Shown: piece after piece, positions 4,650-27,408 of the stretch | How positions within the stretch are numbered: position 1 is the stretch's first letter | Layout of the letters: each line of letters opens with the position of its first letter | Virus record (IMG/VR): IMGVR_UViG_3300042907_001522 | Coordinates: 1-27,408 of that record | Strand: one strand, 5' to 3' | Length of the DNA stretch: 27,408 nt | Source: a virus | Notes under the pieces: model-generated | The model's database searches: none | What the model saw: only the letters and a program-made list of their open reading frames with translations | Told to the model about the DNA's origin: nothing | Translations under genes and position numbers: made by a program

Positions 4650-5234
4650 ATGCCAAACTGCATATTAACAAATTCAAGACCTGAAAGCTGTAAAGAGTTT
4701 GTAGGCGGTATAAAGTCAATATACTTTATTAACTATAGTGACCTTACTCAACTAGTGCCAACTTTTAGTGTTACCGCAGGCCAAGAAGACAGTATCACTA
4801 CAATTACTGGAGCTACTCAACTTTTTAAGTACGACTTAAAAGGCGCAAATTCTTTTGAGCAAACAATAACAAGTTCAAGAGACAACGGAACTACATTTGT
4901 AGACCAAACTCTAACTTTTACAATTAAAGGTTTAGATGCCGTAGCTACAAAGCAAATGAAATTACTTGCTTGGGGGCGACCACACGTCGTTATAAGAACA
5001 AACGCAAATAATTTCTTTATTGCAGGACTTAGAAACGGAATGGACGTAACTACTGGAACTATTTCAAATGGAACAGCTTTCGGTGACCTAGTTGGTTACA
5101 CAATGACACTTCAAGGAATGGAAGCAATTCCTGCAAACCACTTGAACGTTCAGCAAACCGCTGGTAATCCTTCAACAGATGCTCAATTATTAACTGTATT
5201 TACAGGAGCATCAATAGTAGCTTACCCAATTTAA
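4650..5234 (+). CDS. Probable major tail tube protein
   Basis: This 194-aa, Thr/Ser/Asn-rich, beta-strand-rich protein has no membrane segment. It contains pieces such as FSVTAGQEDSITTITG (39-54), FEQTITSSRDNGTTFVDQTLTFTIKG (69-94) and MTLQGMEAIPANHL (about 150-163), the alternating beta pattern of tail tube subunits. It lies alone between two terminators, directly after the capsid gene, which fits an abundant structural protein. The tail tube is the best guess; a head decoration or other major structural protein is the alternative. Unlike the usual arrangement, it is far from the tail assembly chaperone gene (24228). Confidence 0.5.
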   Translation: MPNCILTNSRPESCKEFVGGIKSIYFINYSDLTQLVPTFSVTAGQEDSITTITGATQLFKYDLKGANSFEQTITSSRDNGTTFVDQTLTFTIKGLDAVATKQMKLLAWGRPHVVIRTNANNFFIAGLRNGMDVTTGTISNGTAFGDLVGYTMTLQGMEAIPANHLNVQQTAGNPSTDAQLLTVFTGASIVAYPI

Positions 5235-5253: not shown

Positions 5254-5284
5254 AAAGCCATTCGTAATGAGTGGCTTTTTTTTT
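5254..5284 (+). terminator. Strong rho-independent terminator
   Basis: The 10-bp stem AAAGCCATTC (5254-5263) / GAGTGGCTTT (5269-5278), with one T-G wobble and loop GTAAT, runs into nine T residues (5276-5284). It lies 20 bp after the probable tail tube gene and before the gene at 5326. Confidence 0.85.
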
Positions 5285-5325: not shown

Positions 5326-5658
5326 ATGATAGTATTAACGCCTTCATTAAGTAACCAAACATTTAGTTGTATCCCACGAGATAACACGTTTAATGTGATG
5401 GAAATTACAGATGAGCAAACTAATGTTACCACGGCAATTACAATAATCTCTAGGACTACAGGAGATTACATTTATACAATTACCGCGAGCTACGCATTAA
5501 TAGAGGGACATACTTACACTTTAGTTTTAAGAAATGGTTCTAACATAATTTTTAAGGATAGAGTATTTTGCACCGCACAACCATTAGTTACATTCTCGGT
5601 TAATAATAACCAATATGTAAGTAATTCAACAACAAACACATTTATAGTATATGAGTAA
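5326..5658 (+). CDS. Small beta-rich structural protein, unknown
   Basis: This 110-aa protein is rich in Thr, Ser, Asn, Ile and Val and predicted to be beta-sandwich-like (alternating strands around TGDYIYTITASYALIEGHTY, residues 45-64, and FSVNNNQYVSNSTTNTF near the C-terminus). There is no signal peptide. Proteins of this look lie in structural operons of Flavobacteriaceae phages and could be a head fibre, decoration or Ig-like protein; the function is not established. Its stop overlaps the portal start (5651) by 8 bp, so it is co-translated with the portal. Confidence 0.65.
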   Translation: MIVLTPSLSNQTFSCIPRDNTFNVMEITDEQTNVTTAITIISRTTGDYIYTITASYALIEGHTYTLVLRNGSNIIFKDRVFCTAQPLVTFSVNNNQYVSNSTTNTFIVYE

Positions 5659-22595: not shown

Positions 22596-22925
22596 ATGGC
22601 TAACGAAGAAAATTTAAAACCATTTAAAAAAGGTGAGGTTGCAAACCCTAATGGAAGACCTAAAGGAAGTAAGAACCGAAGCACAATAGCGCGTCAATGG
22701 TTAGAAGTTTATCAAGACCAAACTAACCCTTTTACTTATGAAAAGGAAAAGCTTAGTCAAGAAGACTTAATGACATTAGCTCTTATAAAGAAAGCGAGAG
22801 ACGGAGACGTAAACGCTTATAAAGCATTAATGGATAGTGGTTACGGTGCACCAGTTCAACAGATAGAACAAACAAATATAGAACAACCTTTATTTCCTGA
22901 TGTTAATACGGACGACTGCGATTAG
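22596..22925 (+). CDS. Terminase small subunit (candidate)
   Basis: This 109-aa protein has the N-terminal FKKGEVANPNGRPKGSKNRSTIARQWLEVY (9-38) typical of DUF5681-like/small terminase proteins, followed by helices LTMLALIKKARDGDVNAYKALMDSGYG-like (about 60-86). It lies immediately upstream of, and overlaps by 26 bp, the large subunit gene. Small subunits bind the packaging site and regulate the large subunit ATPase and nuclease. The call depends mainly on motif and position. Confidence 0.75.
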   Translation: MANEENLKPFKKGEVANPNGRPKGSKNRSTIARQWLEVYQDQTNPFTYEKEKLSQEDLMTLALIKKARDGDVNAYKALMDSGYGAPVQQIEQTNIEQPLFPDVNTDDCD

Positions 22926-24057
22926 TAAGATCGCAAAGTTAGACAAGAGAGTAAAAATAATTCAAGGAGGAACGTCAGCGGGTAAAACTTTTGGCGTTAT
23001 TCCTTTGCTTATAGACATAGCAACAAAAGGCGTAAATGAAATAAGTATTGTTGCAGAAAGCATTCCACATTTAAGAAGAGGCGCATTAAAAGACTTCATT
23101 AAAATAATGAGATGGAGCAATAGGTTCTTTGAGAATAGGTTCAACAAATCTTTATTAAGATATGAATTTGCAAATGGTTCTTACATAGAATTTTTTAGTG
23201 CAGATGATAGTAGTAAGTTAAGAGGAGCGAGAAGAGACATTCTTTATATCAACGAGTGTAACAACGTTAACTTTGAAGCATACAACGAATTAGCAATACG
23301 TACAAAAAAACGAATATATTTAGACTTTAACCCAGCGAATGAATTTTGGGTACATACAGAGCTAAAAGATGAGCCAGATACAGACTTCTTAATTTTAACC
23401 TACAAGGACAATGAAGCCTTAGATGATAGAATAGTAACAGAGATAGAAAAGAACCGCTTAAAAGCATCTACAAGTTCTTATTGGGCCAATTGGTGGCGTG
23501 TTTATGGTGAAGGTTTAGTAGGAATGTTAGAAGGAGTCGTGTTTTCTAACTATAAAATAATAGATACGATACCAAATGAAGCAAGATTATTAGGTTATGG
23601 ACTAGATTTTGGTTATTCAAACGATCCTACTTCAATTATAGAAGTTTACAACTATAACGGTCAACGAATACTAAACGAAATATGTTATCAAACAGGTTTA
23701 TTAAATAACGACATAGCAAAGAAACTAGAGAAGCATGTAATAGCATACGCAGATAGTTCAGAACCGAAAAGCATCGAAGAAATACGTAGAACTGGACAAC
23801 AAATCAAAGGAGTAACTAAAGGCGCAGACTCAGTAAATTATGGAATACAAATTATGCAGTCACAATCTTACTTAGTTACTTCACAAAGCACGAACCTAAT
23901 TAAAGAGTTAAGGTCTTACTGTTGGGATGCAGACAAAACTGGTAAAACATTAAACAAACCGCAAGGCAAAAATGACCATGCTATTGATGCTGTTCGTTAC
24001 CATGAAATGGAGACATTAGGTTTAAACAGTAACCATGGACAATACTTTATTCGATGA
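22900..24057 (+). CDS. Terminase large subunit
   Basis: This 385-aa protein has Walker A GGTSAGKT (23-30), Walker B ILYINE (114-119), a coupling motif DFNPANEFW (142-150) and an RNase H-like nuclease domain with D236 (GLDFGYSNDPTS), D284 (YADSSEPKSIEEI) and D359/D363 (GKNDHAIDAVRY). It is the packaging motor of the PBSX/Terminase_3-like group. The start at 22900 overlaps the small subunit gene. Its length is slightly below the typical 400-450 aa, but all motifs are present, so it is complete. Confidence 0.95.
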   Translation: MLIRTTAISKIAKLDKRVKIIQGGTSAGKTFGVIPLLIDIATKGVNEISIVAESIPHLRRGALKDFIKIMRWSNRFFENRFNKSLLRYEFANGSYIEFFSADDSSKLRGARRDILYINECNNVNFEAYNELAIRTKKRIYLDFNPANEFWVHTELKDEPDTDFLILTYKDNEALDDRIVTEIEKNRLKASTSSYWANWWRVYGEGLVGMLEGVVFSNYKIIDTIPNEARLLGYGLDFGYSNDPTSIIEVYNYNGQRILNEICYQTGLLNNDIAKKLEKHVIAYADSSEPKSIEEIRRTGQQIKGVTKGADSVNYGIQIMQSQSYLVTSQSTNLIKELRSYCWDADKTGKTLNKPQGKNDHAIDAVRYHEMETLGLNSNHGQYFIR

Positions 24058-24209
24058 ATGACTTAGAGATTATGATGCAAACAGTTCAAATCTATATTTA
24101 TCAAAAGACTGGTAAGCAAGTAAGAATTTACTTAAGAGACATGAGAGATATTAATATGCTAAAACAAGCTTACGATTACATACAAAAAACGCAAACAACA
24201 AATAACTAA
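24054..24209 (+). CDS. Small protein (51 aa) after terminase
   Basis: The ATG at 24054 overlaps the terminase stop by 4 bp (ATGA); the frame ends with TAA at 24207-24209. The product is a 51-aa basic/aromatic peptide (MMQTVQIYIYQKTGKQVRIYLRDMRDINMLKQAYDYIQ) with a likely beta-beta-alpha layout. The overlap supports translation. No family is recognised. It fills the gap between terminase and the tail assembly chaperone gene. Confidence 0.55.
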   Translation: MNDLEIMMQTVQIYIYQKTGKQVRIYLRDMRDINMLKQAYDYIQKTQTTNN

Positions 24210-24227
24210 AATTTTAATTATAATAAT

Positions 24228-24980
24228 ATGCAATTAGAAATTAATGTACCTTCAACTTTAAGTGAAATTCCATTAAAGAGTTATCAAAAATTTTTAAAGG
24301 TTCAAGAAGGTAGTAACGACCCAGAGTTTATTGCACAAAAAATGGTTCAGATATTTTGTGATATTGAATTAAAAGACATCGTCAAAATGAAGTTGACAAG
24401 TTTAAACGAATTAATTGTACACTTTAAAAACTTGTTTGAGCAGAAGCCAAAATTTCAACCTACATTTAAGATAGGTAACCAAGAATTTGGGTTCATAACG
24501 AAACTTGAAGACATAACATTTGGCGAATACGTAGACTTAGAGAATAACTTATTGAAGTGGGATGATTACCACAAAGCAATGGCCGTTTTGTATCGTCCAA
24601 TCAAAATGAAGTTTAAAGACAAATACGAGATAGTTGATTACACGCCGTTAGAGGAAATGCAAGAGCTAATGAAGTTTACTCCTGTAGATATAGCGATTAG
24701 TTCGAGTATTTTTTTTTGGAATTTAGGAGCAGAATTATTGACAGCTTCTCTTACCTATTTGGAAAAGGAGATAAAGAAGAACCCGAAGATGCTAACGAAT
24801 TTAGTGAACAAGCTCAATTTGGAAAACAATGGGGATGGTATCAAAGCGTTTATGCGCTCGCAGGAGGAGACCTTACAAAATTTGACACAGTTACCGGATA
24901 TGGACTTACTTTCTGTCTCACCTATCTCACCTTCGAAAAACAAAAGCAAGAAATTGAACAACGCCAACTTAATAAACTAA
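24228..24980 (+). CDS. Tail assembly chaperone, 0-frame product (gpG-like)
   Basis: This 250-aa protein (0 frame) begins MQLEINVPSTLSEIPLKSYQKF and has FGFITKLEDITFGEYVDLENNLLKWDDYHKAMAVLYRPIKMKFK (about 84-127), a pattern I know from Bacteroidota phages. Chaperones of this type hold the tape measure during tail assembly. After residue 163 the 0 frame runs through a hydrophobic/Leu-rich stretch (FFWNLGAELLTASLTYLEKEI) to NLIN. The position upstream of tail genes supports it. The same DNA carries a second frame from 24701, so a longer fusion product (about 253 aa) is expected by -1 frameshifting at the T run 24709-24717. Confidence 0.75.
   Translation: MQLEINVPSTLSEIPLKSYQKFLKVQEGSNDPEFIAQKMVQIFCDIELKDIVKMKLTSLNELIVHFKNLFEQKPKFQPTFKIGNQEFGFITKLEDITFGEYVDLENNLLKWDDYHKAMAVLYRPIKMKFKDKYEIVDYTPLEEMQELMKFTPVDIAISSSIFFWNLGAELLTASLTYLEKEIKKNPKMLTNLVNKLNLENNGDGIKAFMRSQEETLQNLTQLPDMDLLSVSPISPSKNKSKKLNNANLIN
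24709..24749 (+). promoter_or_regulatory. Candidate -1 programmed ribosomal frameshift site
   Basis: A run of nine T (24709-24717) reads ATT TTT TTT TGG in the 0 frame. A -1 slip lets both Phe codons re-pair exactly, moving to the frame that is open only from 24701 (a TAG at 24698-24700 blocks it before). An AGGAGC (24725-24730) / GCTTCT (24744-24749) stem, six pairs with one G-T, starts 7 nt after the slip site, a suitable stimulator spacing. Confidence 0.7.
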
Positions 24981-24988
24981 AACGATGA
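24716..24988 (+). CDS. Tail assembly chaperone, -1 frame extension (gpT-like part)
   Basis: This frame, open from 24701 to the TGA at 24986-24988, encodes FGKQWGWYQSVYALAGGDLTKFD (35-57), TGYGLTFCLTYLTFEKQKQEIEQRQ, the ending known from G-T fusions of tail assembly chaperones. It has no ATG; the only start would be TTG at 24716 inside the T run. It most likely is made by fusion with the first 163 residues of the 0-frame protein. Its stop overlaps the start of the next gene (24985) as ATGA, while the 0-frame stop at 24978-24980 does not, which supports translation. The fusion product is about 253 aa. Confidence 0.75.
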   Translation: MEFRSRIIDSFSYLFGKGDKEEPEDANEFSEQAQFGKQWGWYQSVYALAGGDLTKFDTVTGYGLTFCLTYLTFEKQKQEIEQRQLNKLKR

Positions 24989-25440
24989 CAGGTTATTACA
25001 ACTTATTAGACAAACTAAAAACACACTTTGATGCAGATGCTATAGTTAACACGGTAACTCAAGGTGATATATTTAAAGTTGACTTAAGTAAACAAACTAT
25101 ATTTCCTTTGTTGCATATCATGGTTAATAACTGTACCTTAAATGGAAACACAATAATTTGGAACATAAGTCTTATAGCGATGGATGTAGTAGACTTGTCA
25201 AAGAGTTCTACAACAGATATATTTTTAGGTAACGATAATGAGATCGATGTTTTAAATACTCAACACGCAGTATTAAATAGAGCTTATGAAATTATAAGAC
25301 ATGGAAACTTAGCTTATGATTTATTTATGGTTGAAGGTTCTGCAAATTTAGAACCATTTACAGAACGATTTGAAAATTACATGGCGGGTTGGACAATGAC
25401 TTTTGACGTAGTTACACCGAACGATATGACAATTTGTTAA
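24985..25440 (+). CDS. Tail terminator-like protein
   Basis: This 151-aa protein has FPLLHIMVNNCTLNGNTIIWNISLIAMDVVD (40-70), DNEIDVLNTQHAVLNRAYEIIRHG (83-106) and the C-terminal FTERFENYMAGWTMTFDVVTPNDMTIC, a layout recalled from tail completion/terminator proteins (gpU/gp17-like) of Bacteroidota phages. Such proteins cap the tail tube and join it to the head. It lies just after the tail chaperone. The ATG overlaps the -1 frame stop. Confidence 0.65.
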   Translation: MTGYYNLLDKLKTHFDADAIVNTVTQGDIFKVDLSKQTIFPLLHIMVNNCTLNGNTIIWNISLIAMDVVDLSKSSTTDIFLGNDNEIDVLNTQHAVLNRAYEIIRHGNLAYDLFMVEGSANLEPFTERFENYMAGWTMTFDVVTPNDMTIC

Positions 25441-25990: not shown

Positions 25991-27033
25991 TGGCTAATAT
26001 ATTTGCACGTTCACCGTATATAGTAAGAATAGCACAATCAACACAAGTTGGTTCAAAGTTGGAAATATTTTTAAGTCCAACAACTTTTGGCGGAACACCT
26101 ACATACACGTTAAGTAAATTAATTCCTTCACCAACAAATATTGACACTTTGTACGATGTTAGTCCATATATTAGAGAATACATAAAATTCAATTTGTGTG
26201 CAGCAGGTGGAAATTCAGCAGTAACAAACCCAACGAATGAACGAGTAAACGTACAACTAAAACTTTATTGGTATAACGGCACTACCTATGCACAAGTAGG
26301 AGCAACACAAACACACATAGCATTTGACGGTTATACATATTACGAAGACCTTTATAATAAAGATTTAGGAAACTATGGACTTGACGCAGGAAATTATTAC
26401 TATAATCCTACTTCAGACGCAGGAAAAATACGAGTAACAACAGGCGCAAGTTTTACAGCACGTTACACAAATTTAAGCACCGCAGTAGTAACAAGTTTAG
26501 CAGTAGCAAGTTCGACATTTGATATTCCACGAGTAAGAACTGCAAACGTAAACGAAGGAAACAAAGTAGAAATTTTAAACGGAGCTTCAGCAGTACAAGC
26601 AACTTGGTATTTTTATCCGTTAGAAGAATGCAAATATACACCTGTTATAATTGACTTTGTAAACAAGTACGGAGCTTGGCAAAGAGAATTCTTTTTTAAA
26701 GCAAGTACAGATAACTTTAATGTTGAAAACACGGAATACAATTTGATGCAAACATCACAATTTCCAACAACTTTTTATAGTGGATTAGAAGGGCAAAGAA
26801 AAACATTTAATACTAATGGAAAGAAAAGTGTTAAGGTAAATACAGGTTGGGTTTACGAAACTTGGAAGGAAGTTTTAAAACAAATAATGTTAAGCGAACG
26901 AATTCTAATAGACAATAAACCTGCAAAGATTAATACTAAAAGCACGGAGTTGTTTAAGCATATAAACACGAAACAAATAAATTATAGTTTGGAATTTGAG
27001 TTTGCATTTGATGTTATTAATTCAGTTATTTAA
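25990..27033 (+). CDS. Tail-associated structural protein
   Basis: This 347-aa protein is beta-rich (Thr/Asn/Tyr/Val), with RSPYIVRIAQSTQVGSKLEIFLSP (8-31), YTLSKLIPSP (39-48) and YDVSPYIREYIKF (55-67) near the N-terminus; the rest shows alternating strands and C-terminal SLEFEFAFDVINSVI. This pattern belongs to a family of structural proteins found near tape measure genes in Flavobacteriaceae phages; it could form a distal tail or baseplate part. The exact role is unknown. Its stop overlaps the next ATG (27033). Confidence 0.6.
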   Translation: MANIFARSPYIVRIAQSTQVGSKLEIFLSPTTFGGTPTYTLSKLIPSPTNIDTLYDVSPYIREYIKFNLCAAGGNSAVTNPTNERVNVQLKLYWYNGTTYAQVGATQTHIAFDGYTYYEDLYNKDLGNYGLDAGNYYYNPTSDAGKIRVTTGASFTARYTNLSTAVVTSLAVASSTFDIPRVRTANVNEGNKVEILNGASAVQATWYFYPLEECKYTPVIIDFVNKYGAWQREFFFKASTDNFNVENTEYNLMQTSQFPTTFYSGLEGQRKTFNTNGKKSVKVNTGWVYETWKEVLKQIMLSERILIDNKPAKINTKSTELFKHINTKQINYSLEFEFAFDVINSVI

Positions 27034-27408
27034 TGAAAAGGCAAGTAGCAATATTTATAGAAACGGCTTTAGCGCAAACAGAGTTAGAATTTGCACGTTT
27101 AGAATTATTTAACGATGAAAAGATTTCCGTAAGTTCAACCATTCAAAATATTTCGGATATAAGTAAAATATTTACAGACTATTCACAAGGTTTTACAATT
27201 CCTTGTTCACCTACAAACAACGCAATATTTCAGCACTTTTACCAAAACGATGTTGATGCAACTATTGATTATCAAAATAGGTACAACGCTTATATTGAAG
27301 TTGACACGGTGTTATTTAGACGTGGTAAAATTCAACTTGAAAAGACGAACCTAAAAAACGGAAGACCTGATAGTTATTCAGTAACTTTTTACGGAGCAGG
27401 TGTAAGTT
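27033..27408 (+). CDS. Tail structural protein, N-terminal part (3' truncated by window)
   Basis: The frame starts at 27033 (TAATG overlap) and is still open at the window end, so the gene continues; about 125 residues are visible. Features are LELFNDEKISVSSTIQNISDISKIFTDYSQGFTIPCSP (24-61) and NAIFQHFYQNDVD, then beta strands with VLFRRGKIQLEKTNL and DSYSVTFYGAGV. The pattern matches large structural proteins that accompany the preceding gene in Flavobacterium phages, likely tail/baseplate parts. It is followed outside the window, probably by more tail genes and the tape measure N-terminus. Confidence 0.6.
   Translation, partial: MKRQVAIFIETALAQTELEFARLELFNDEKISVSSTIQNISDISKIFTDYSQGFTIPCSPTNNAIFQHFYQNDVDATIDYQNRYNAYIEVDTVLFRRGKIQLEKTNLKNGRPDSYSVTFYGAGVS

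Follow-up and report, generated by a model that had tools for sequence, protein, structure and literature searches.

How many proteins does one start codon yield when a run of nine thymines (T9) lies inside a gene and both the 0 frame and the -1 frame stay open behind it? This question is raised by a gene in the linear IMG/VR virus record IMGVR_UViG_3300042907_001522, of which we analyzed the whole stretch of 27,408 bases, here called the window. The virus is one of Flavobacteria-type bacteria. By its sequence, the gene appears to work like the G/GT gene of phage lambda, with a -1 slip site leading into a conserved T-like open reading frame (ORF). We consider it probable that this is a G/GT-like gene with two products generated by a -1 shift and with both endings under selection, RNA polymerase slippage being a live alternative to a slip of the ribosome. 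The features on which this reading is built are the following.

24228-24980, + strand: 0-frame ORF (G-like) of 250 amino acids (aa), residues 1-163 common to both predicted products
24709-24717, + strand: T9 slippery run, with the 0-frame heptamer T TTT TTT at 24710-24716
24716-24988, + strand: -1 frame segment (T-like) of 90 codons, ending in TGA at 24986-24988 and without internal ATG
24717-24980, + strand: continuation of the 0 frame beyond the slip site, with 87 codons that overprint the -1 segment, ending in TAA at 24978-24980
24698-24700, + strand: final -1-frame stop 5' of the run, a TAG
24722-24727, + strand: TTTAGG, read as FR in the -1 frame, as LG in the 0 frame and, in the third frame, closing with TAG two codons past the slip

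The 0-frame codons across the run are ATT TTT TTT TGG, and U UUU UUU is a standard heptamer for tandem slippage. The predicted products would measure 250 aa (0 frame) and 253 aa (-1 slip), with 163 shared residues followed by either 87 or 90 of their own. The original prediction, made from the letters of this stretch, had placed a T9 run where the -1 frame opens and had described a 0 frame that stays open past the site as well as a -1 stop overlapping the start of the next gene (TGA at 24986-24988, ATG at 24985); all three were borne out. It had also located the run correctly behind the last -1 stop, but the distance between them is 8 nucleotides (nt) and not 9.

Relatives of the region were gathered by scans of IMG/VR, GTDB and a phage collection and range from 99% to about 25% identity. 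The whole region is held by 313 loci, corresponding to 162 distinct sequences, and non-redundant sets of 147 and 61 were formed at two levels; loci cut by contig ends are not among the 313, nor is one locus with T8 (L099). T9 was present in 312 of these complete loci and T10 in one, in the same frame throughout. The codon preceding Phe-Phe was GTT, ATT, CTT or TTT (V/I/L/F) and the codon following was TGG, TAT or TAC, the Ts of the run being invariant even at wobble positions although the residue ahead of Phe-Phe varies. In these loci ATT accounts for only 41% of Ile codons and TTT for 84% of Phe codons, and just two further runs of nine or more Ts were present besides the 61 slip sites in the 333 kb of the 61 non-redundant loci. 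TTTAGG, shortly 3' of the run, was unchanged in all 147 non-redundant relatives, and the -1 domain carries the motifs FFLxFR and W-x-WY invariantly (FFLxFR...WGWY in the window). A short distance between the last -1 stop and the run is not characteristic of the family; this gap ranges from 5 to 137 nt among relatives.

Both frames were intact in every relative not cut by a contig end, with the sole exception of L099, and none of these relatives combined a broken -1 frame with an intact 0 frame, the finding that the original prediction had named as its refutation. The T8 of L099 (3007-3014) would break both endings and may reflect a homopolymer error or a defective phage. The isolated Nonlabens phages P12024S and P12024L carry the same architecture with T9. 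A profile scan of genome contigs with the -1 alignment returned two contigs of one Winogradskyella metagenome-assembled genome (in a second scan, the first being empty), and annotated phages gave no DNA-level match to the region and no protein match to the -1 segment.

We found that neither frame is likely to be open by chance. When the -1 protein and the local codon usage are taken as given, a 0 frame that reaches its observed end without a stop has a probability of 1e-6 in the window and a median probability of 4e-5 among 61 relatives; conversely, for a fixed 0 protein, an open -1 frame has a probability of 1.4e-5 in the window (median 6.5e-4). In control stretches of 80 codons from other genes of the same loci, the matching hidden frames were open in 3 of 2,380 cases (0-type) and 2 of 2,380 cases (-1-type). 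Moreover, the overlapped -1 frame is poor in xTA codons, which would create 0-frame stops, as compared with the part upstream: TTA supplies 22% versus 54% of Leu, ATA 6% versus 53% of Ile and GTA 4% versus 40% of Val.

A substitution analysis of both frames across relatives had been suggested along with the original prediction. We counted substitution classes in two clades, using a simplified version of our own of the overlapping-gene method, and rates at sites silent in only one frame were lowered in both directions. In the clade of the window, the rate at sites silent in the -1 but not in the 0 frame was 0.207 as compared with 0.593 in the next gene, and that at sites silent in the 0 but not in the -1 frame was 0.146 as compared with 0.982 upstream. 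The corresponding values in the second clade were 0.517 versus 1.471 and 0.160 versus 1.469. One measure weighs on the other side: the ratio dNN/dSN, with values of 0.47 and 0.65 in the overlap, is not separated on its own from the control (0.65, 0.67) and was not relied on.

Synonymous -1 codons were further shuffled under three constraints: an unchanged -1 protein, an unchanged codon content and no stop in the 0 frame. The similarity of the 0-frame proteins exceeded this null with z 12.9 for 14 divergent relatives and z 6.8 for 8 relatives below 55% identity, and the reverse test on the -1 frame gave z 40.9. The controls matter here because the selection tests do not fully remove the relatedness of the sequences; in the upstream single-coded part and the next gene they gave z 0.3 to 2.2. 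Segment by segment, the 0-frame signal reaches to about codon 75 after the slip; it is negative at codons 35-45, where the -1 frame encodes the WGWY part, and absent after codon 76. These data show purifying selection in both frames over about 75 codons and lend strong comparative support to the dual coding and -1 shift at T9 that had been proposed. What is new is the family-wide evidence for selection on both endings, together with the near-complete overprinting of a T-like -1 domain and products of equal length. In the accessible (non-subscription) literature we found no description of such a selected two-ending arrangement.

The 0-frame tail might nevertheless be a passenger, open by chance or through constraint on a -1 domain that alone is functional. 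Its final 10-15 codons are not conserved beyond the null, its stop varies in position (70-94 codons in the long clade), and AlphaFold2 gave residues 196-250 a predicted local distance difference test (pLDDT) score below 50. However, open-frame probabilities of 1e-6 to 1e-4 in dozens of relatives, the depletion of xTA codons, the reduced rate at -1 silent sites and a shuffle z of 12.9 obtained with 0-frame stops already forbidden all argue against a passenger, which we hold to be very improbable. Still less credit is due to the idea of an independent -1 gene that starts from a codon of its own within the 0-frame gene. A TTG at 24716 could act as such a start in the window, but in 56 of 61 relatives the -1 frame has no ATG from its upstream stop to 30 codons beyond the slip, Y-type clades have TTA as the codon at the slip, and conservation begins exactly at FFL. 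Finally, homopolymers are error-prone and one contig (L099) does read T8, so that a sequencing or assembly error in a truly single-frame gene was weighed too; the agreement on T9 of independent metagenome assemblies with the isolated phages P12024S/L, and the selection on both frames, leave this explanation with next to no credibility.

How the shift is made is a separate matter, and the sequence fits ribosomal and transcriptional slippage alike, so that the two cannot be told apart by it. The original prediction had assumed a ribosomal frameshift, with which the sequence is indeed compatible, but slippage of RNA polymerase on T9 is compatible with it too: it would add one U to some transcripts, and normal reading of these into the -1 frame would give the same two products. 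It is established that bacterial transcription slips on nine consecutive A or T (PMC5009743), and slippage amounts to 15-30% for several Shigella genes (PMC4256274). With this precedent, a run length kept at exactly nine, no RNA stimulator in sight and a third frame that always stops two codons past the run, which would cut products of other slip sizes, we regard the transcriptional route as quite possible, if short of probable. No 3' stem in the window was better than in shuffled sequence (z 0.34 and 0.19) and no consistent downstream structure emerged among 17 sequences. On the other hand, nine Ts also arise when T TTT TTT is joined by one T forced by the V/I/L/F codon and another forced by W/Y, TTTAGG is explained by the two protein frames as well, and the known G/GT cases are translational (PMC5009743). 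The composite view of an equal-length chaperone pair that differs in its last third, has its T-like domain almost wholly overprinted and is switched by RNA polymerase slippage on T9 and not by the ribosome seems to us unlikely.

On the ribosomal reading, one start would lead to two proteins of nearly equal length. Most decoding would remain in the 0 frame and yield the G-like protein of 250 aa, which has an 87-residue tail to itself; a fraction of ribosomes would slip back by one base on T TTT TTT, presumably by tandem slippage of Phe-tRNA, and yield the 253-aa GT-like protein. The slipping itself and the product ratio are what we infer from sequence. The pair may serve as tail assembly chaperones, the shared part acting on the tape measure protein and the -1 domain recruiting the tail tube protein, and the 0-frame tail could be a second, overprinted functional segment of the abundant form.

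We built a tree, its root not known, from the single-coded part. Clades with tails of 16-25, 55-62 and 70-94 codons (after Phe-Phe) separate cleanly on it, with two changes, the minimum, and the -1 domain is present in all three. Most simply, the -1 domain would be old, and the 0-frame tail would have lengthened over it or, as the direction is itself inferred, shortened in the P12024S clade. The tail of just 16-25 codons in that clade speaks against a need for the long tail everywhere.

Is the gene a tail chaperone gene, as the original prediction had named it? Its neighbors are as follows.

22900-24057: terminase large subunit (TerL), upstream neighbor of the recoded gene
24985-25440, + strand: next gene, 151 aa, PHROG 30964, its ATG overlapping the -1 TGA as ATGA

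The identity as a tail chaperone is likely but unproven, and it is proposed because the architecture is that of G/GT; the architectural part of the original naming thus stood, while above-threshold profile or fold matches and a place beside the tape measure gene did not materialize. Several findings weigh against the name. No tail assembly chaperone (TAC) family of Pfam matched above the cut-off (Phage_TAC families; PF10109 gave none in the window gene), sub-threshold matches to Phage_TAC_7 being confined to two members (E 0.065). Fold searches of both frames against the PDB gave no credible match, a known fold being still possible, a sequence search of solved structures gave none, and a Foldseek (BFVD) match to a protein named tail assembly chaperone was only weak (E 0.54). 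Furthermore, the gene adjoins the terminase and not the tape measure gene, lying beside TerL in the window and in P12024S. The usual place of a chaperone gene, as given in PMC2628397 citing Xu et al., is between the major tail gene and the tape measure gene; here, no major tail gene was identified. As a position directly after the terminase is unusual, we say no more than that the gene works like G/GT.

A frameshifted two-form phage gene with another role, for instance a head-tail or packaging accessory, would suit this position right after TerL in the window and P12024S and the lack of a TAC profile or fold match. However, the architecture fits G/GT and two genes downstream lies a weak match to an HK97-gp10-like tail component (E 0.03), and we think a non-chaperone role somewhat unlikely. 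P12024S and all 12 related records searched have a tape measure gene on the same strand as the recoded gene, after which it begins at a distance of about 4.6 kb in the record of L004. The shared part matches PHROG 32199, of unknown function, at 5.5e-12 in the window, and the match extends to all 47 members of A5. AlphaFold2 predicted it to be a well-folded alpha/beta domain (pLDDT about 70-92 for residues 1-160), and helices were predicted for the 0-frame tail (about 51-69 to residue 195) and for the -1 domain (about 70).

Genes 46-48 of P12024S, which immediately precede the tape measure gene, were considered as another candidate chaperone pair and rejected: gene 46 has a T4 gp9/10 domain, and genes 47 and 48 showed no slippery run on reading. 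A protein of Flavobacterium phage 6H (Foldseek 3.6e-4) was tried as a bridge to the chaperones and gave no clear answer, as the frames near the site look disturbed. In that phage (L335 9900-10947, KC959568.1) the annotated 191-aa ORF stops early and similar-looking sequence continues in other frames, which may reflect sequencing errors or another recoding site.

Accounts of G/GT frameshifting usually speak of a short protein and a longer version of it. The slip site of lambda is close to the 3' end of G, with GT as the extended form (PMC5009743). The gene described here shares with lambda a -1 shift that connects a G-like part with a T-like domain further downstream, and a position ahead of the tape measure gene. 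Unlike in lambda, the 0-frame ORF of the window runs 87 codons beyond the slip through nearly the whole T-like domain, the two forms have 250 and 253 aa, the slip site is T9 and the gene comes after the terminase. A long overlap is in itself not new because gp17.5 of SPP1 is the nearest precedent: it has 173 aa with the slip at residue 112 of a UUUUUUC heptamer gene and a 61-codon 0-frame tail, its partner 17.5* having 297 aa (PMC6316719). These putative chaperones likewise combine a T-rich heptamer with a 0-frame tail that overlaps the -1 frame; they differ in that most of the -1 domain of 17.5* is not dual-coded and that the gp17.5 gene directly precedes the tape measure gene. No two-frame selection test of gp17.5 was found in the accessible literature. 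Shigella mxiE and similar transcription-slippage genes, although unrelated, also have an A/T homopolymer in the coding region that leads to two C-termini, and T9 lies within their range of nine or more A/T.

The closest isolated counterpart consists of genes 38/39 of the Nonlabens phages P12024S/P12024L, a homologue (28% identity over the shared part) with the same T9 and the same kind of -1 domain, but with a 0-frame tail of 25-27 codons. P12024S_38 and P12024S_39 (L153 2501-3195; JQ823122.1 23136-23830) are the 0-frame and -1 parts of one probably recoded T9 gene; the annotated start of P12024S_39 is an ATG well downstream of the -1 junction. The gene thus stands in the records of isolated phages as two separate, seemingly unrelated hypothetical proteins. 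Such a pair is easily missed because its two products would run together on a gel. The family of Bacteroidota phages described here has two alternative, equally long endings that are encoded by one stretch of DNA and are both selected. It offers a natural example of overprinting that is rich in sequences, and a clean system in which to study the role of the abundant form's C-terminus.

Some minor observations concern the surroundings. A 51-aa ORF at 24055-24210, under the cut-off of the ORF list, lies between the terminase and the recoded gene and overlaps the terminase stop. A second T9 run in the window, at 5276-5284, falls between ORFs 4650-5234 and 5326-5658 and is apparently intergenic. 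Positions 1-1877 of the window encode the C-terminal part of a tape measure protein, and at 27033-27408 begins a homologue of P12024S_45 (754 aa). Each end of the record falls inside a gene, and a few kb of genome between these two genes seem to be missing. Two copies of the recoded gene (L048 and L060) share one contig of 47,246 bases (IMGVR_UViG_3300044639_000820) with pieces of more than one tape measure gene, which looks like two related phages joined in assembly.
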